Assembly (NCBI GenBank): GCA_024103385.1
Contig: JAGFIT010000022.1
Coordinates: forward strand, 1 to 64,000
DNA from: Vicingus serpentipes
Lineage (GTDB): Bacteria > Bacteroidota > Bacteroidia > Flavobacteriales_E > Vicingaceae
Direction of reading: 5' to 3'
Length of the DNA: 64,000 bases
The notes below the pieces were generated by a model that saw nothing but the letters and a program-made list of their open reading frames with translations, was not told the DNA's origin and did no database searches. This document shows positions 44,286 through 56,613 of the stretch, in pieces. Position 1 is the first letter of the stretch. Every line of letters begins with the position of its first letter. The translations under genes and the position numbers were made by a program.

Positions 44286-45305
44286 ATGAACTCCATATTA
44301 ATTATATATACAGGAGGGACAATTGGTATGATTCAAGATGAAAAGACTGGTTCATTAAAGTCTTTTGATTTTGATTCCCTATTAAAAGAAGTCCCTGAAT
44401 TAAAAAAAATTAATGCTACCATTGATTCTATCTCTTTTGAAAACCCTATTGATTCTTCAGATATGGGGCCTGAAAATTGGTTAGAGATTGCTCAAATTAT
44501 TTTTGACAATTACAATCAACATGATGGTTTTGTAGTACTTCATGGTTCCGATACTATGTCTTACACTGCTTCAGCACTAAGTTTTATTTTAGAGAATTTA
44601 AACAAACCTGTAATTTTAACAGGATCTCAACTGCCCATTGGATCTATTAGAACGGATGCTAAAGAAAATTTACTTACAGCCATTGAAATAGCCAATACAA
44701 AGATTAATAATATTCCAACAGTACCAGAAGTTGCCGTTTATTTTGAGTACAGTCTATATCGAGGTAATCGATCCATAAAGGTTAGCGCAGAAGAATTTGA
44801 AGCATTTAAATCCCCCAATTATCCACTACTAGCTGAAGCAGGTGTTAACTTGAAATTCAATAAATCGGTTATTCATCAAACAAATGGTAAAGATTTATTT
44901 CTAAATAAAAAACTAGATAATCATATTGCTACACTTAAAATGTTTCCTGGAATTACTCAACAACAAGTAAATGCTACCTTAAGTATTCCAAATTTAAGAG
45001 CAGTTGTATTAGAGACTTTTGGTGCAGGAAACGCAACTACTGAATCTTGGTTTATCAACCTAATTGATGAAGCTATTCAAAAAGGTATTATTGTTTTAAA
45101 TATCTCACAATGTATAGGAGGAAGTGTAGATTTAGGTAAATATGCTACCAGTTCTGATTTTTTGAGAATAGGTGTAATAAATGGAAAAGATATGACTTTT
45201 GAAGCTGCTGTAACGAAGTTGATGTATCTATTGGGGACTAATTACTCTATTTCTCAAATAAAAGAGTTATTGCAACAATCCTTAAGAGGAGAAATTACTC
45301 TTTAA
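44286..45305 (+). CDS. ansA: Type I L-asparaginase
   Basis: The 339-residue enzyme has TGGTIGMIQDE near the start with the nucleophile Thr12, the second active-site block HGSDTMSYTASAL, and GSIRTDAKENL. It is of the cytoplasmic type I size and has no signal peptide. A -7 element TATATTTG (44261-44268) lies 18 bp before the ATG. Its end overlaps a convergent gene by 11 bp. Confidence 0.95.
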   Translation: MNSILIIYTGGTIGMIQDEKTGSLKSFDFDSLLKEVPELKKINATIDSISFENPIDSSDMGPENWLEIAQIIFDNYNQHDGFVVLHGSDTMSYTASALSFILENLNKPVILTGSQLPIGSIRTDAKENLLTAIEIANTKINNIPTVPEVAVYFEYSLYRGNRSIKVSAEEFEAFKSPNYPLLAEAGVNLKFNKSVIHQTNGKDLFLNKKLDNHIATLKMFPGITQQQVNATLSIPNLRAVVLETFGAGNATTESWFINLIDEAIQKGIIVLNISQCIGGSVDLGKYATSSDFLRIGVINGKDMTFEAAVTKLMYLLGTNYSISQIKELLQQSLRGEITL

Positions 45306-45747
45306 ACCCTACTAATAAAGAAACACAGCCTTGCGCTACCATTTCAGTCATCTTAGTGGTCTTTTCTTTTTCAGGGATAGTAATGTGAATAAACAGTTGT
45401 TGGGTATTTGTCACCTTAAAGTCCCAAAAAGGATTAACATCATCTTCCTCACTAGTATAAAGCACTTTCTTTTTTTTATCTAAAACTTTAAACTGAACAT
45501 TTCCAATCATTTCTTGAGAACAAATTAAAATTCGATATTCTTTCCCTGCGTTAAAAGTCATCAACACTTCGGCTGAATCCCCCTGAATCATATATGTGCT
45601 GGTTAATTGTCCGTTATGAATATATGGAGCTAAAGATGGCAAACAGTATTTTTTAGTAAACCTTTTACACTGTGCAGCACTATCAAGCGTACTTAATAGC
45701 AGCAAACTACCTATAAATACTAGAAATAATTTATTGAATAATTTCAT
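45295..45747 (-). CDS. Small secreted protein of the adhesin operon
   Basis: A 150-residue protein with a signal peptide (MKLFNKLFLVFIGSLLLL to DSAAQ). The mature part has QCKRFTKKYCLPSLAPYI, then a beta-rich stretch with DSAEVLMTFNAGKEYRILIC and WDFKVTNTQQLFIHI. I recognise no named domain. Its ATG overlaps the end of the upstream lipoprotein gene by 17 bp, so the two are surely translated together. Its end overlaps ansA by 11 bp. Confidence 0.75.
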   Translation of the reverse strand: MKLFNKLFLVFIGSLLLLSTLDSAAQCKRFTKKYCLPSLAPYIHNGQLTSTYMIQGDSAEVLMTFNAGKEYRILICSQEMIGNVQFKVLDKKKKVLYTSEEDDVNPFWDFKVTNTQQLFIHITIPEKEKTTKMTEMVAQGCVSLLVGFKE

Positions 45748-46606
45748 ATCGAATTTTTTCTATTTCTTCTACTATTTCAAATATCACCTCGTTTTCATAA
45801 GACAATGTCGCTCCTCCTTCAATAGTTGCTACACCAGCACTATTATTAACGGTAACCTCATCTTCCGTCTCTTTCACTTTCTCAAACAAAATCCTTAAAC
45901 TTTCTAATCGAATTGACAGTTTTTTTACATCCTCGTTTTCATAAGTAGAAAGTAATTCCATTAAACTCGCTAGTGAAAATTTTTGCTCTGCAATTTTTCG
46001 CATCAATTCTTCCTCTGGATTAGCTTTATTTAATGTTTTTGCCCCTATATACAATCCTTCTATCCACCCTCCAATAATGATCAATGCCGAAAGGTTATCT
46101 TGTCCATTTTCTTTCAAGTGGGCATCAACATCCCAAAAAGCATCGTTTGTAAGCCTCATTAGTGAATCTCTATTATTAATATTTTCTTCCATGCGCTCCA
46201 TCGTTTCAGCATCAAAAGCAGAAGTTATTCCTAATTCATCCGCCAATGTTTTAACACAATTCATATAAAACATAGCGTCTTGTGACTGGTCAAATATATT
46301 CACATAGCTCAAGTCTGCACCATAGACCCCAAAGTTGATTGCTTTTTGAGAACTCGTTGAATAATTACCAACATTCTGTATAGCATTTAAAATTTCTCCA
46401 TTATAATTTGCTCCTGCTTGATGAAAGATGGATGCCGTTTCCATTGGTGACGGAACTGTTTGAAAAACTGTTTGCGCTTTTCCCTGTCTTTCTGATATAA
46501 TATCATTTTCCCCCAATGTTGTTTCTGTTGCTGATTTTTGTTCTGTATTATTAGTACAAGCTACTAGTATACTCACTAGGAAAAAAACTGGGAAATATTT
46601 ATTCAT
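45731..46606 (-). CDS. Lipoprotein of the adhesin operon
   Basis: This 291-residue lipoprotein has a signal peptide ending in lipobox LVAC, then TNNTEQKS. The mature part is mostly helical (LADELGITSAFDAETM, DVDAHLKENGQDNLSALIIIGGW, KLSIRLESLRILFEKVKE). There is no named family I can recognise. It lies 81 bp after the PorP/SprF gene and overlaps the next gene by 17 bp. A partner or anchor for the adhesin system is possible. Confidence 0.75.
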   Translation of the reverse strand: MNKYFPVFFLVSILVACTNNTEQKSATETTLGENDIISERQGKAQTVFQTVPSPMETASIFHQAGANYNGEILNAIQNVGNYSTSSQKAINFGVYGADLSYVNIFDQSQDAMFYMNCVKTLADELGITSAFDAETMERMEENINNRDSLMRLTNDAFWDVDAHLKENGQDNLSALIIIGGWIEGLYIGAKTLNKANPEEELMRKIAEQKFSLASLMELLSTYENEDVKKLSIRLESLRILFEKVKETEDEVTVNNSAGVATIEGGATLSYENEVIFEIVEEIEKIRYEIIQ

Positions 46607-46687: not shown

Positions 46688-48037
46688 TTATTTAACCAAT
46701 ACTAACAGCCATGCTCCCTTAGTTGCTTTCAAGCGAGATTCTTCCAATTTGGTTAATGCTTGCTCTTTTGTGTCAAATTTATATGTGTATACATAATTAT
46801 ATTTAGATTCTTCCGAATAAACCCAGTTCGTTTGAGAGAATCCTTTTGCGGCAATTGTTTTTACGTACTCTATCGCAAAGCCTCTCTCTAGAAAAGATCC
46901 TACAACAATATATACCCCTTTTTCAGGAAGGTGAGAATCAACATCTTTAAAATCTTCTACCGGGTTTGTAATAACTGTTATTCCATTCTCAACCACTTTA
47001 CTGTACTTGCTTTCTTCTTTCGGTTTTTCTTCTTCCACTTTCTTTTCTTCAACTTTTTCCTCCTCTATTGATTCTTCAACCTCTTCTTTTGGCTTCTCTT
47101 TCTTAACCTTTTCTGGTTTTTCTTTTTTCTCTTTTTGAGCTGAATTAGCAAACTTGAAATTAAGCATGAGCTCATGGCTTATTCCTGAATATTGGCCTAT
47201 ATCACTCGTAATAATATCATAAGAGTAACCGATGTCAAATCTTTTTAATAAGCTTATTCCTGCGTGAGCACTAACAGCATATTCATTTTTATAAGCTGCT
47301 CCCATCCAAAATTTTTTATTCCAATCTAATGTTGCACTTGCTTCATATTGCAATGGCGCATTTGGTACATACCGAATCAATGCTTGTGGTACAACAAATA
47401 CATTTTTTTCTTTAATAAGTAAAGCTCGATATTTGATAGAATTCATAAAGTGATGTGATTGAGTATAAGAAACATCTGTTCCTCCTTCATTTAAAAATGA
47501 GGCTTTATTTTGTAATATTTGGTCAACTGCAACACCAACTTGTAGTTCTCTCCATGTGAAAGATACCCCCACATTTCCATCAAAATTAGTTTTACTTTGA
47601 TCCATGGTAAGTATCGTTGGATCAGTTATTTCTTGGACAACAGTTTTAGAAAAATCCATGTTATGATTAAGAAAACGAAATGAAGCTCCAAACCTTAAAT
47701 GACTGTCGTCACTAATCGTTACTTTATATGAAGATAAAACTGATCCTCCTATTCTTTCGTTAATTCCCTTTTTATCACTAATAAATACAGCTCCTATTCC
47801 CAGTTTTTTATTAAAGAGATTGCCATCAGCGGCTACCATATTGAGTTTAGGAGCTCCTTCAAACCCAGTCCACTGAGCCCTAGAGAGCAACATGATATTA
47901 GTAAAACCCTTATCTCCGGTAAAAGCGGGGTTGTAAGTTATCGGATTGTAGAAATAATGATCATAAAGCCCAATCTGTTGCGCTCGAATGTTAGTCAGCA
48001 AAAACCCTAAAAATATGATTAATATACTTTTCTTCAT
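46688..48037 (-). CDS. PorP/SprF-family outer-membrane protein fused to a SPOR-like domain
   Basis: A signal peptide (residues 1-19, ending RAQQ) precedes a PorP/SprF beta-barrel domain (about residues 20-295; DHYFYNPITYNPAFTGDKG at its start, GYSYDIITSDIGQYSGISHELML at its end). A charged KEKKEKPEKVKK/EE linker spans about 298-345. The last 80 residues (372-449; KGVYIVVGSFLERGFAIEYV, YVYTYKFDTKEQAL) look like a SPOR domain. SprF in F. johnsoniae helps export SprB. The SPOR-type end, which binds stripped peptidoglycan in other proteins, is a variant. It lies 20 bp from the 627-residue repeat gene. Confidence 0.87.
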   Translation of the reverse strand: MKKSILIIFLGFLLTNIRAQQIGLYDHYFYNPITYNPAFTGDKGFTNIMLLSRAQWTGFEGAPKLNMVAADGNLFNKKLGIGAVFISDKKGINERIGGSVLSSYKVTISDDSHLRFGASFRFLNHNMDFSKTVVQEITDPTILTMDQSKTNFDGNVGVSFTWRELQVGVAVDQILQNKASFLNEGGTDVSYTQSHHFMNSIKYRALLIKEKNVFVVPQALIRYVPNAPLQYEASATLDWNKKFWMGAAYKNEYAVSAHAGISLLKRFDIGYSYDIITSDIGQYSGISHELMLNFKFANSAQKEKKEKPEKVKKEKPKEEVEESIEEEKVEEKKVEEEKPKEESKYSKVVENGITVITNPVEDFKDVDSHLPEKGVYIVVGSFLERGFAIEYVKTIAAKGFSQTNWVYSEESKYNYVYTYKFDTKEQALTKLEESRLKATKGAWLLVLVK

Positions 48038-50013: not shown

Positions 50014-53000
50014 TTATTTTATCAGCGTAACACGACCAATCTTCGCATGATCCTCTCCATGGACATCTCTAAAAAATAAATGCCAAACATATACTTCTTC
50101 CTCCACTATTGACCCCTTATAAGTTCCGTCCCAAGGTTCAAATTTAGTATGTGTTTCAAAAAACAATTCTCCCCAACGATCAAATATTAAGAAGGTATAA
50201 TTATCATCTAATATTCCATACCCTTTTGGTCCAAACCCATCATTTATTCCATCTCCGTCTGGTGTAAAAGAATTAGGAATAAATAATGCCCAATCTTCTT
50301 TTATCATTAACAATTTCGTAATGGTGTCTTTACATCCATTGATGTCCACTACTTCTAACTGTATCACGTGTGTCCCAGCAACAACAGGAAAAGTATATTC
50401 TGGATGTTGTTTTAGACTTATAGCTAATCCTCCAAAATCCCACTCCCATGATACAATATTAAATGAGGTTCCTATTTCAAAATAAGATTTATCCTTAAAT
50501 TGAATAGTATTATCAACTATTGTTGTTGGGTTAGGTGTCATAACGAAATCTGCAATAGGTTGAGGAAAAACATGTATATAATCCATGCTATCAACTATAG
50601 TTGAGCATCCATCCAAACTAACGATTAATAAACTTACATCAAACCATCCATGTTTAATATAGGTGTGATGTACAGAATCAAGAGCTGTGCTACTAATAGG
50701 GGTGTTGTCTCCAAAATTCCAATAATACCTGCTAACATTAGAGCTAACAGCCTCAAACAAAACATCTAAAGGGCTACACCCTTCTTTAGGGTAAGCAAGA
50801 ATTGCTCCTGATGGGGCTGGTTTAACAAAAACATAAGCTGTATCATAAGCAGGACTTGAACAACCATCATTTAAAGTAATAATAAATGTAAGTAAGGAAT
50901 CGTTAAGATTCGTACTTACCGTTTGCCCTTGCGTATTCACGCCATTATCCCAACTATAAGTATATGTGCCACTTCCTCCTTGAGGAATTGCGTTGATCAA
51001 TGCATTGTCACCACCACAAACTGTTGCATCAGATGCTGTTATAGACAATGGCGGTCCTACTTTCACCCTAACATTTTGAGGAGCAACATTACAGCCATTT
51101 GCATCTACAGCTCCAACAGAATAAAAAGTTGTTATCGTTGGAGATACCTGATGAGGTCCTGGCCCAGTTGCAGTTACCCCCCCCCAACTATAAGTATAAG
51201 GAGATATTCCTCCTATCACACTGGCTGACATTGTAGCTGTATCTCCATAACAGATAGAATCACCAAAAACGGTCAACACCATTAAATCAGGTTCGTTAAC
51301 AGTAATGCTATCTGTTACAGAACAACCGTTATTGTCTGTAACTACAACCGAATAGTTCCCTTTCATTAAACCCGTAATTGTTGTATTTCCTTGAGAAACA
51401 AAACCCCAATCGTAAATGTACGGAGCTTGTCCTACTGTTGTATTCATATAAACATTGGCTCTTCCTGTATTTCCTCCATAACAGAGAACGTCCACTACAG
51501 AAATACTATCTATAATTGGGTTATTATAAACAGTAACATAAGAAGTATCATATGCTGGAGATGAGCATCCATCATTTACAGTAACAACATATTTGATAGG
51601 TAGCGGAGAAAAAGATGGACCAACTAATTGAGAGGCCGTATTAACTCCATTATCCCAACTATAAGTATGTGGATCACCATTGCCTCCTAAAGAACTAGCG
51701 CTAATTGTTCCGCTATCTCCATCACAAATAGCTATATCTGTTGCTGCAACAACTAATGGATCTGTTACAGTTACCGTTATACTTAATGGTCCTGCAGCAC
51801 AATTATTAGCATCGGTAACATCTACTATATAAGTAGTGGTTGTAGTTGGAAACACATCATGCACACCTGGTCCAGACAAAGGTGGGCCTCCTGTCCATGT
51901 ATAGGTATACGGAAGAGTACCTCCTGTAGCTTGTCCATAGATTTGTGCAGTATCTCCATGACAAATTGTAATTCCATCACTCACCTCTAATTCAAGTAAC
52001 ACTGGTTCATCAACAGCAATGTTCCCACCAGCTGTACAGCCATTACTATCTGTTACAATAACTGAATAAATACCCTTTGATAAACCACTTATATTCTGAA
52101 ATATTTGTGAAGTTGGTGCCCAAGCATAAGTAAAAGGAGGTGTACCAGTTCCATTTGTTAAGTAAACAGATGCTGTACCTGTACTCCCTCCATAACATAA
52201 TACAGGTGTAGATGTTACACTATCAATTTCAGGCCCTGGACTATCTGTAATTGTATAATTTTCAGTAATACTACAGCCATTATTATCTACTACATTGACC
52301 GTATAATTACCTGCAAATAAACTTGCTGCAACAGCGGTTGTTTGTAGTCCTGGATCATTCCATTGATAACTATATGGCAACGTTCCTCCTGACACAGTAA
52401 TTGATGCATTCCCATTATTCATACTACATGTCGCATCCTCAAATGAAGGATTTCCTGTTAACAATGGTGGTTCTGTTAATACCCAGTTTTCATCTGTTGT
52501 ACAACCATTTTGATCTACTACCTGTAGCGCGTAATTTCCAGCTGCTAAAGTATTTGCTGTAGGTGCCGAACTAACATTTGGCGTCCAGTTAAAAATGTAA
52601 AATGGTGTTCCTCCTGTAACACTCACAAAGATGCTTCCCGTGTTATCCTGAAAACATTTTAAGTGTTCAAAACTATTACTATCTATTACTAATTCATCAG
52701 GTTGAGTAATAATTACGGAATCCTTTACTTGGCAATTATTATCATCGGTTACAGTAACCATATAATCTCCATCACATAGATCAATAGCATTTGCAGTGCT
52801 CTGAGTTAATGGGTCATCCCATAAAAAAGAAAGTGCACCTGTTCCTCCAATAGCTGAGGCATTAGTTGTACCATCACAAGCATTAAAACAACTCACATCA
52901 GTATGTGATGTAATCACTAAATTAATTTTTGGCGGTTCTAAAACAGTAACAGATTGGGAAACACTACATCCTGCAGAATCTATTACAGTCATAGTATGAG

Positions 53001-56000
53001 TTCCTCCTTTTAAATTAGTTGGATTCTGAACAGTTTGATTATCAGGAGTCCATAGTATAGTATACGGTGTAACCCCTCCTGTAATAGTTGTAGTTGCCGT
53101 ACCATTAGTATCTCCATAACATAATAAATCTGTATGCCCGTCAATAGTTAATGTTGGAGCAGAAAGATCATTAATATTGACCACTTCTGTTCTTAAACAA
53201 CCTACGGCATCGGTGACATCAACAGAATAAGTTCCCGCTAACACATTAGCAATACAAGATGTGTTAGAAACCGCAGAATCATTCCAAACATAAGAATATG
53301 GAGGTAAACCTCCTGAAGGAGTAACACAAGCACCCCCATTTGCTTGTCCACAGTTAGAAACGTTAGTAGATTGAACAGTTATTAAAATTGGCAAAGATTC
53401 AATAAGGGTAATAGTATCTGTTACTGAACAACCATTAGCATCAGTTATTTCAGCAATATTTTGTCCTGGACATAAATCTACAGGGTTATTGGTAGTTTGA
53501 AGTCCAGGCATCCATACAAATGAATAAGGAGCTGTTCCGCCACTAAAGGCAATATTTCCTGTTCCATCACAAATTCCATTACACTTAATATCTGTCCCAG
53601 TCACTGTCGCAATAAGTTCAGTGGGTTGTGTAATAATTACGTTAATAATAGAGGTACACCCGTTAGCGTCAGTAACTGTGGAAGTGTATGTACCTGCGCA
53701 CAAATTAGTAGCAGTAGTCACTGTATCTCCGTTACTCCAACTATATGAATAAGGTGCTGTTCCTCCAGAAGCCGTTACTTGAGCAAAACCTATACATTCC
53801 TGATAACACACTAAGTTCCCTTTAGAAGAAATATTACTTACTAGTTGAGTGGGTTCATTAATTGTAGTTACAGCTTGTGATGTACAACCATTATTATCTA
53901 CAATATTAACAGTATATGTTCCCGCACATAAAAATTTAGCGGTGTCTCTTGTTTGGTTTAATGGGTCATTCCAAGTATAAGTATATGGAGCCTGCCCATT
54001 CCCAACGATAGCAACAGCAACTCCATCACATGAACCTTGACATAAAGCATTCGTTTTCGCTATAGTTGTTGTTACTGTTGGTGGATTATTTAATGTTACT
54101 GAACGATTGATATTACACCCATTTGCATCCGTAACAGTAACGGTGTACGTTCCTGCTGTTAAATTGTTCACCGAAGCCGTTGTTGGATTCCCAGGTATGG
54201 CCCACAAATAAGTATAAGGAGGAACTCCTCCAACAGGATTCATAGAAACAGAACCGGTGCTTCCTCCAAAACATATAGGGTTTGTTCCTATGATATTTCC
54301 ATTTAAAAGTGGTGGCTCTGTAATTGTAGTATCAACAACAGCAGAACATCCATTTGCATCAGTTACTGTAAGAGAGTAAACTCCTATTGGTAAATTAACA
54401 GCCGTTGGTGTAGTTTGTCCATTACTCCATAGATAGGTATACGGTGTTGTACCCCCAGAAATCGTAGTGTAAATATTACCATTACTTCCTCCTGAACAAG
54501 AAACATTATTAACTATTTTTAGTCCAGCAACAGGACCAGCATTATCAGTGATAGTTACTGGAGCCGTTTTAGTACAGAAGTTTAAATCCGTAATAGTCAC
54601 TATGTATGTTCCTGATGCTAAATTACTCGCATTAGGTCCTGTTTGCCCATCAGACCATGACCACGAATAAGTAGGAAATCCTCCTGAACCTGTTACTGAA
54701 GCAGAGCCGTCAGCCTGTCCACAATTAGCATTCACAACAGTACTGGATATTTGCAATTCATCAGGCTGATCAATTACAGCAGAACCAGATGTAGTACAGC
54801 CATTATCGTCCGTTACTGTTACTGTGTAAGTCCCTACAGGTAATGAAGATATATTATCTGAAGTATACCCTCCTGGCATCCATAAATAAGTATAAGGAGC
54901 AGTTCCACCTATTCCTATTGCAGAAACAGATCCTGTGGAAGCCCCAAAACAACCCACGTGAATAGGGGTAACACTTGTTGATAATGGTGTTGGTTCCGTA
55001 ATCGTTTGTGAAATGGTGTCAGAACACCCTTGGCTATCAGTTATTTCTACTAAGTAGGTTCCTGGAGCAAGCCCACTAGCAGTGGGTGTATTTCCTGCAA
55101 CTGCAGGTGTCCATATGTAAGTGAAAGGAGGAACAATAGCTGGTCCAGTTAGTGCGGCAGTTATCTTTCCATCATTAGCTCCATTGCAAAGAACATCTGT
55201 ATATGAGGTAATTCTAGCGTTTCCTCCAGGATTAACCCCTACAATAATTGTATCCGTCACTGAACAACCAAGAGAATCTGTTGTAGTTACATTGTAACTA
55301 CCACCTGATAGTCCATTTTGCCAGTCAGTTGTTCCTCCAGTACTCCATAGATAAGTAAAAGGGCCTATACCGCTTGTAACAAGAACATCTGCTCTCCCAT
55401 TCGAAGCATTACAATTAGCGTTACTCGAAGTTGTTGTAGTTGTTACCCCTCCAACAGTAATACAAAATGCATAGGTTTGAGATCCTTGGTAAGGACAATT
55501 ATCATCTTGCACTGTTACTGTAAAGCAATGAGGAGTAGACCGAATATCTGCTTGCGTGGGTGTCCATGAAAAATTAGCTGTTGGCCGATTTCCTGTACCA
55601 GGCGTAAAAGTACCTCCAGCAATTCCATTATTCCATGTCAATGTTAAATTATCCCCTGCATCTGCGTCAAAAGAAGGAATGTCAAAATTAATAGGGTTTC
55701 CTACACACTCAGACAAAGAGTAGCTTCCTGTATTGTTAATCCCATTTAAATAAGGGTTGTTGTTAGAACAAGGAATTGTTCTGACTTGTATATCTCTTCT
55801 TATAGAGCCTATTAATACCCCATTTCTATATTCTTGAACTAATACGGCAAATACGGTCACTTGAATTTGATCTGGAGTTACACAAATATCTCCAGTTGCT
55901 GGATTAAAGGTTATTGGAAGACTAGTTGATAGAGGGTTAGTAGAAGAATAGGGAACAGTATATGTAACTGGCACACCCACATTATGCAAAGGTTCAGTCA

Positions 56001-56613
56001 TCGAATAATATAAAGAATCTCCATCTATGTCTAAAGCCCCATTATTAAAACAGTAAGGTTGTCCCACACAAATAAAAGGAACTGGTTTATTCGTAAATGT
56101 AGGTGTGTTATTACAAGGAAAATCAAGTGTATTTATTGTTGACTGAATGTACATGTTTTGTCCGCCAGGGTTATTAATTGTTTGAATAGCATTATTCCTA
56201 CAACACAAGCGATAACCTACAACCCAATCGTTACAAGGCTGAAGTGTTACTATCGCAGAATAAATGTATTCTTGAACACCAGGATTAGAACCTCCTGTGC
56301 ATCTACTTGATGCACTTGGGCAAATCGGTGTTACTTCTACCCCAGTACCAGGTATTTTATTTAGTGTTACATTTTGGTTAATTCCACAAGACGCTGAGGA
56401 ATAAGTCACGCTCGCAGAGTTGGGAGCGTTAACTCCAGCACAATCTCGATACAGAGACAATCTTATTTCGTATTGATTTCCACCTAAGCATTTTATCGTA
56501 ATATCTCCTCCTTGTACGTGTGTTGCGTATGAGTTAACGCTTAGAAGCCCTAAAAAAAGAAATAAAAATGCTTTAAACAGTAATGAATAAAATATTTTTA
56601 GTTTATGGGGCAT
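50014..56613 (-). CDS. Giant SprB-repeat adhesin with a gliding-motility C-terminal domain
   Basis: This 2199-residue surface protein has a signal peptide (ending about residue 30, SYATHVQGGDITIKC) and a conserved N-terminal domain of about 380 residues with many cysteines (CNDWVVGYRLCCRNNAI). About twenty repeats of about 80 residues follow. Most are SprB type (GGTAPYTYLWSNGxxT, xLxxGTYTVTVTDxNGC); four near the end are a different Ig-like form (SPLPIKYVVTVNDGCSSPAYDT) found in pairs. Two PKD-like domains and the CHU_C domain (FIPNSFTPDGDGINDGF, IFDRWGELFFET) end it. It resembles F. johnsoniae SprB, the mobile gliding adhesin, but is shorter. It starts the operon. Confidence 0.93.
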   Translation of the reverse strand: MPHKLKIFYSLLFKAFLFLFLGLLSVNSYATHVQGGDITIKCLGGNQYEIRLSLYRDCAGVNAPNSASVTYSSASCGINQNVTLNKIPGTGVEVTPICPSASSRCTGGSNPGVQEYIYSAIVTLQPCNDWVVGYRLCCRNNAIQTINNPGGQNMYIQSTINTLDFPCNNTPTFTNKPVPFICVGQPYCFNNGALDIDGDSLYYSMTEPLHNVGVPVTYTVPYSSTNPLSTSLPITFNPATGDICVTPDQIQVTVFAVLVQEYRNGVLIGSIRRDIQVRTIPCSNNNPYLNGINNTGSYSLSECVGNPINFDIPSFDADAGDNLTLTWNNGIAGGTFTPGTGNRPTANFSWTPTQADIRSTPHCFTVTVQDDNCPYQGSQTYAFCITVGGVTTTTTSSNANCNASNGRADVLVTSGIGPFTYLWSTGGTTDWQNGLSGGSYNVTTTDSLGCSVTDTIIVGVNPGGNARITSYTDVLCNGANDGKITAALTGPAIVPPFTYIWTPAVAGNTPTASGLAPGTYLVEITDSQGCSDTISQTITEPTPLSTSVTPIHVGCFGASTGSVSAIGIGGTAPYTYLWMPGGYTSDNISSLPVGTYTVTVTDDNGCTTSGSAVIDQPDELQISSTVVNANCGQADGSASVTGSGGFPTYSWSWSDGQTGPNASNLASGTYIVTITDLNFCTKTAPVTITDNAGPVAGLKIVNNVSCSGGSNGNIYTTISGGTTPYTYLWSNGQTTPTAVNLPIGVYSLTVTDANGCSAVVDTTITEPPLLNGNIIGTNPICFGGSTGSVSMNPVGGVPPYTYLWAIPGNPTTASVNNLTAGTYTVTVTDANGCNINRSVTLNNPPTVTTTIAKTNALCQGSCDGVAVAIVGNGQAPYTYTWNDPLNQTRDTAKFLCAGTYTVNIVDNNGCTSQAVTTINEPTQLVSNISSKGNLVCYQECIGFAQVTASGGTAPYSYSWSNGDTVTTATNLCAGTYTSTVTDANGCTSIINVIITQPTELIATVTGTDIKCNGICDGTGNIAFSGGTAPYSFVWMPGLQTTNNPVDLCPGQNIAEITDANGCSVTDTITLIESLPILITVQSTNVSNCGQANGGACVTPSGGLPPYSYVWNDSAVSNTSCIANVLAGTYSVDVTDAVGCLRTEVVNINDLSAPTLTIDGHTDLLCYGDTNGTATTTITGGVTPYTILWTPDNQTVQNPTNLKGGTHTMTVIDSAGCSVSQSVTVLEPPKINLVITSHTDVSCFNACDGTTNASAIGGTGALSFLWDDPLTQSTANAIDLCDGDYMVTVTDDNNCQVKDSVIITQPDELVIDSNSFEHLKCFQDNTGSIFVSVTGGTPFYIFNWTPNVSSAPTANTLAAGNYALQVVDQNGCTTDENWVLTEPPLLTGNPSFEDATCSMNNGNASITVSGGTLPYSYQWNDPGLQTTAVAASLFAGNYTVNVVDNNGCSITENYTITDSPGPEIDSVTSTPVLCYGGSTGTASVYLTNGTGTPPFTYAWAPTSQIFQNISGLSKGIYSVIVTDSNGCTAGGNIAVDEPVLLELEVSDGITICHGDTAQIYGQATGGTLPYTYTWTGGPPLSGPGVHDVFPTTTTTYIVDVTDANNCAAGPLSITVTVTDPLVVAATDIAICDGDSGTISASSLGGNGDPHTYSWDNGVNTASQLVGPSFSPLPIKYVVTVNDGCSSPAYDTSYVTVYNNPIIDSISVVDVLCYGGNTGRANVYMNTTVGQAPYIYDWGFVSQGNTTITGLMKGNYSVVVTDNNGCSVTDSITVNEPDLMVLTVFGDSICYGDTATMSASVIGGISPYTYSWGGVTATGPGPHQVSPTITTFYSVGAVDANGCNVAPQNVRVKVGPPLSITASDATVCGGDNALINAIPQGGSGTYTYSWDNGVNTQGQTVSTNLNDSLLTFIITLNDGCSSPAYDTAYVFVKPAPSGAILAYPKEGCSPLDVLFEAVSSNVSRYYWNFGDNTPISSTALDSVHHTYIKHGWFDVSLLIVSLDGCSTIVDSMDYIHVFPQPIADFVMTPNPTTIVDNTIQFKDKSYFEIGTSFNIVSWEWDFGGLAISLKQHPEYTFPVVAGTHVIQLEVVDINGCKDTITKLLMIKEDWALFIPNSFTPDGDGINDGFGPKGYGILDDNYTFLIFDRWGELFFETHTKFEPWDGTYKGSIVEEEVYVWHLFFRDVHGEDHAKIGRVTLIK

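Follow-up and report, generated by a model that had tools for sequence, protein, structure and literature searches.

Here we ask whether a PorP/SprF-family protein of Vicingus serpentipes ends in a SPOR domain and, if so, what such an end would hold in place. The protein is encoded in the window (the whole stretch of 64,000 nucleotides that we analysed), together with two neighbours upstream of it (Table 1). It matches PorP_SprF (PF11751) over residues 18–294 (Pfam, E = 2.2e-62) and TIGR03519 over residues 1–296 (NCBIfam, E = 2.3e-66), and the QQ pair that follows its putative cleavage site (residues 20–21) is invariant among relatives. Judged from its sequence, this 449-residue protein is very likely a carrier, predicted to bind and export cargo, and we refer to it as such hereafter. 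The AF2 full-length model consists of a 14-strand barrel, the last strand of which extends to residue 296, a disordered linker and a folded tail. Foldseek matched the barrel to FadL-type barrels and to the T9SS translocon chains 8gl6 and 6h3i. The linker, of which 71% is K or E, has a pLDDT of about 32; the original prediction had placed and described this 45-residue segment correctly. The architecture of barrel, linker and SPOR-fold tail is certain. Cysteine is absent from the whole protein, and the C-terminal tail carries no SprF-type Cys motif. A scan of the locus for promoters and terminators returned nothing useful beyond what shuffled sequences gave.

Table 1 Features of the carrier gene and of the two cargo genes upstream, in window coordinates.
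Feature	Position	Strand	Description and basis
PorP/SprF-family carrier with SPOR tail	46688..48037	-	449 aa, ATG start, whole ORF including stop
Signal peptide, residues 1-19	47981..48037	-	By eye, putative cleavage before QQ
14-strand outer-membrane barrel, residues 46-296	47150..47902	-	AF2 model, Pfam PF11751, Foldseek
Disordered K/E-rich linker, residues 299-343	47009..47143	-	AF2 model and composition
N-terminal beta-hairpin of tail domain, residues 346-359	46961..47002	-	AF2 models; outside Pfam SPOR core
SPOR-fold domain, residues 374-449	46691..46918	-	Pfam, homologous tails, tail profile, AF2, VIA
Type B CTD (CHU_C/TIGR04131) cargo protein, 627 aa	48058..49941	-	20 bp upstream of carrier
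2199-aa SprB-repeat adhesin, PKD domains, type B CTD	50014..56613	-	72 bp further upstream

Scanned alone against Pfam SPOR (PF05036), the C-terminal ~100 residues scored 17.7 bits (E = 0.0044), below the cut-off of 21 bits. Homologous tails were then collected, 13 from related genomes (its own included) and 41 more from named records. A SPOR match was found in 12 of 13 homologous tails at E ≤ 1 and in 35 of 42 at E ≤ 0.01, the best value being 1.9e-11. The collection was scanned with an alignment of five sequences, one of 13 distant sequences being too diverse for this purpose. Searched against the PDB, the tail profile retrieved the SPOR domains of CwlC (1x60, E = 4.5e-7) and FtsN (1uta, E = 7e-4); a PDB search with the single tail of this carrier found no SPOR domain, which was detected by profiles only.

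The AF2 model of the tail (pLDDT 95.6) has, after a hairpin, the element order β-α-β-β-α-β of an RNP-like fold. In VIA, the top row was an uncharacterised exported protein (6ozd, Z 8.4), and the SPOR domains of CwlC (Z 7.7), RlpA (7.5 without and 7.3 with glycan) and DedD (6.9) aligned with the tail over 73–76 residues (r.m.s.d. 2.5–3.2). DamX (4.7) and FtsN (4.3) also scored above the first unrelated folds (3.6). Foldseek ranked SPOR domains in its top three rows for the tail, but its E-values all exceeded 0.001 (best 0.06); because these are weak, the fold assignment rests on the VIA Z-scores, the topology and the profiles together. By these models and profiles the tail is a predicted SPOR fold and more than a chance resemblance, a claim that would be arguable from the sequence of this copy alone. 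The original prediction had read the tail in this way, and the profile search and structure prediction that it proposed bear it out: the structural similarity to SPOR, whose absence would have spoken against it, is present. The sub-threshold Pfam score of this copy could also mean that the tail has degenerated into a remnant without function or resembles SPOR by chance. This reading is highly improbable, being already contradicted by the conservation of 51 tails in which A388, Y415 and W443 are near-invariant, and by the confident fold and wide distribution.

Because 14 is an even number of strands, both termini of the barrel lie on one side, the periplasmic one. The model thus puts the tail in the periplasm, in agreement with the report that the SprF C-terminal tail is periplasmic (PMC12635249), and not outside the cell, the orientation that would have weighed against the original prediction.

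PorP/SprF proteins act as dedicated carriers and remain attached to their type B cargo (PMC9143113, PMC12618676, PMC12635249); published pairings include SprF–SprB and the PorE–PorP–PG1035 complex (PMC9143113). The genome studied here encodes SprA, GldK and GldJ and has 36 type B CTDs above the cut-off, and the carrier gene is paired with type B cargo in the same way, following two type B CTD genes. Among carriers with enough flanking sequence, an ORF with a type B CTD lies directly upstream in 50 of 50 SPOR-tailed, 16 of 16 OmpA-tailed and 77 of 88 short ones, and the homologue of the 627-residue protein is the recurrent, conserved partner of SPOR-tailed carriers. Since carriers remain cargo-bound and two genes for type B cargo lie just upstream of the present one, what the tail would anchor is the adhesin–carrier complex and not the export machine. 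The original proposal, that the tail fixes the outer-membrane export machine to the wall, thus keeps its periplasmic SPOR-fold end and, as a conditional step, peptidoglycan binding, and changes its object. Downstream of the carrier on the same strand lie a putative lipoprotein of 291 residues with a lipobox-like LVAC identified by eye (45731–46606) and a secreted protein of 150 residues with no family match (45295–45747). We considered both as parts of the carrier unit and rejected them, as no homologue of either was encoded near any relative that was fetched.

That the barrel is normally the end of a PorP/SprF protein, as first assumed, holds within this genome, in which the other 13 of 14 copies end within 29 residues of the barrel match. 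It does not hold for the family at large: 163 non-redundant PorP/SprF sequences from the fetched loci comprised 51 with SPOR ends, 16 with OmpA, 6 with other folded ends and 90 short ones, counts that show the existence of the tail types and not their frequency because a large part of the sequences came from searches with SPOR-tailed queries. By hand count, SPOR-tailed carriers are encoded in at least 11 of 41 related genomes and OmpA-tailed ones in at least 9 of the 41. The OmpA tails match PF00691 above the cut-off, which means that the place of SPOR can also be taken by an unrelated domain from a peptidoglycan-binding family. A tree built from the barrels alone contains about 10 changes of tail type, at least 4 of them involving SPOR on well-supported branches, which indicates several swaps of the tail. 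The SPOR-tailed PorP/SprF protein is therefore a recurrent design, with OmpA as an alternative end. We found no paper describing SPOR-tailed PorP/SprF proteins in the literature searched; the architecture may well be on record in domain databases.

Two further observations concern the collected loci. One record filed under Gammaproteobacteria (L103; CP034120.1, 'Glaciecola amylolytica THG-3.7') encodes SprA and 19 PorP/SprF proteins, and the SPOR-tailed carrier among them is similar to one from a Fluviicola MAG (L104); the record is probably a mislabelled Bacteroidota genome. At five loci (L084, L085, L088, L089 and L091) a second PorP/SprF gene directly follows the SPOR-tailed carrier. Its tail, a different one of about 220–300 residues, comprises a coiled coil and an end that by eye appears transthyretin/CRD-like, and the two such tails that were scanned had no Pfam match. 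A second PorP/SprF of this type is absent from the window.

Two known arrangements offer a comparison for a carrier with its own periplasmic end. SprF of Flavobacterium johnsoniae has the same barrel family, is the dedicated carrier of an SprB-type type B adhesin (PMC9143113, PMC12635249) and uses its periplasmic C-terminal tail for attachment to what lies beneath (PMC12635249). The SprF tail, however, is short and is disulfide-bonded through twin cysteines to GldK of the moving track, whereas the carrier described here has a SPOR domain and no cysteine. In Porphyromonas gingivalis, PorP binds the type B protein PG1035 and is itself bound by PorE, a lipoprotein that binds peptidoglycan (PMC9143113). 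This system and the PorE-like operons of F. johnsoniae share with our locus a type B cargo held by PorP and a proposed tie to the wall (PMC9143113, PMC12618676); there a distinct lipoprotein that carries an OmpA-like domain provides the link, whereas here it would be the carrier's own SPOR-fold tail. The F. johnsoniae cargo Fjoh_3952, which has a PorE-like partner encoded alongside, appears to be static, whereas the moving cargos of this species are not encoded with a PorE-like gene (PMC12618676).

A PorE-like ORF follows 16 of 83 short (tail-less) carriers versus 0 of 55 tailed ones (raw Fisher p = 2e-4), an exclusion that is suggestive only because the phylogeny makes the cases non-independent and leaves 4 to 6 independent pairs on the tree (sign test p = 1; p = 0.1 for the related-genome-search subset alone). 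Three or four of the five PorE-like neighbours scanned have TPR, propeller and OmpA domains, some with a CRD; in one (L141) the propeller alone was above threshold. Fusions also occur: one protein (L155) is PorP–CRD–OmpA and another (L036) is PorP–TPR–SPOR, the SPOR domain of the latter being found by a local profile, and they give the impression that pieces of PorE have become fused to PorP. Together with L062, these are PorP/SprF proteins fused to CRD and OmpA or to TPR and SPOR, domain types that occur in PorE.

Cysteine and peptidoglycan-type tails were also considered as mutually exclusive classes. This rule is not borne out, as cysteine occurs outside the domain in 11 of 90 short and 8 of 16 OmpA-type tails, and one carrier of the same genome (L169) combines a C-terminal cysteine with a PorE-like neighbour. 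SPOR tails are the only type that is cysteine-free there (0 of 51). Five short-tailed carriers of this genome (L161, L162, L165, L167 and L169) have a cysteine among their last five residues, and one of them lies beside GldJ; these cysteines are possibly the counterpart of the SprF link.

The SPOR domains of RlpA, FtsN, DamX, DedD and CwlC (PF05036; PMC6895207) resemble the tail in their RNP-like β-α-β-β-α-β fold and in their place at the end of a flexible linker. Unlike those, the PorP tails belong to an outer-membrane barrel and not to a division protein, lack the conserved Gln and the R285/R309 Arg, and are aromatic-rich at the corresponding strand positions. In RlpA, the conserved Gln and three Arg contact denuded glycan, most glycan contacts being made by the main chain, and in FtsN the residues Q251, S254, W283, R285 and I313 matter (PMC6895207). 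An alignment with FtsN shows another residue in place of the Gln in 51 of 51 PorP SPOR tails (V in 40, I in 9, M in 2), and Tyr in 46 of 51 where FtsN has R285 and RlpA has R309. The S254 position keeps S, T or A in 42 of 51, the W283 position is aromatic in 40 of 51, and the strand 4 Trp (W443) is present in 50 of 51. The tail of our carrier accordingly has neither the Gln in strand 1 nor a basic residue at the FtsN R285 position. Most of the other readable SPOR domains in this genome keep the Gln. One 370-residue protein (L016; G000:C47:about 41000) has a C-terminal SPOR domain that likewise lacks it and is the closest within the genome to the PorP tails.

The replacement of Gln and Arg makes denuded septal glycan a doubtful ligand, so that the 'denuded' peptidoglycan named in the original prediction finds no support in the residues. 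A tail that recognised such glycan in the classical manner would place the adhesin at the division site. The fold match to RlpA and CwlC, the retention of F382 in 39 of 51 tails and the position of W443 where the alignment ranges put DamX W416 are in keeping with this; the Gln is nonetheless lost from all members and the Arg from nearly all, and no division genes lie in the neighbourhood of the carrier. We regard septal recognition, on these residues, as improbable. A wall anchor for adhesins over the whole cell would presumably not want septal specificity.

The same substitutions would suit a SPOR fold that has been repurposed as a protein–protein module, docking the carrier not to glycan but to a periplasmic partner such as the GldK/GldJ track, GldN, a PorE-like protein or another lipoprotein. 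The uniform exchange of glycan-contacting Gln and Arg for V/I/M and Tyr, the presence of GldK and GldJ in the genome and the attachment of SprF to GldK through its C-terminal tail (PMC12635249) all speak for docking. Set against it, the SPOR tail alternates in the same place with OmpA, a known peptidoglycan-binding family, and lacks the cysteines of the SprF link. Moreover, because the RlpA contacts are mostly main-chain (PMC6895207), peptidoglycan binding could survive the substitutions. On balance we consider docking unlikely.

The likely reading is that the carrier is a cargo holder with its own peptidoglycan anchor, which would keep the adhesin static. It would take the two type B adhesin-like proteins encoded upstream out of the SprA translocon and stay bound to its cargo in the outer membrane, while the periplasmic SPOR-fold tail, on its flexible linker, would bind peptidoglycan and hold the cargo in a fixed place. 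One polypeptide would thus do the job of PorP and of the separate peptidoglycan-binding PorE of other operons. That relatives have either SPOR or OmpA in this place suggests an attachment of the adhesin to the cell wall through the tail, as do the SPOR fold, the periplasmic position, the cargo pairing, the PorE pattern and the fusions. The loss of Gln and Arg, and the dependence of PorE absence on phylogeny, count against such an anchor. From this evidence we infer peptidoglycan binding and a static cargo.

A broader scheme, less probable than not to our minds, treats the periplasmic tail as a swappable destination module: a Cys tail would couple the adhesin to the moving gliding track, a tail of SPOR or OmpA type would couple it to the wall, and a separate PorE would serve some of the short-tailed carriers. 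The SPOR version would then be an aromatic-rich, Gln-less subfamily that reads intact, not denuded, peptidoglycan and fixes adhesins all over the cell and not at the septum. The tails do point to a SPOR subfamily in which the side chains known to contact glycan are missing.

Papers of 2025 ask how Bacteroidota determine which of their surface adhesins move by gliding and which remain fixed (PMC12618676, PMC12635249). A built-in tail of wall-binding type makes this question testable by the swap or deletion of one domain and, if the wall anchor is real, would allow static and mobile adhesins to be told apart in advance by a rule based on sequence.
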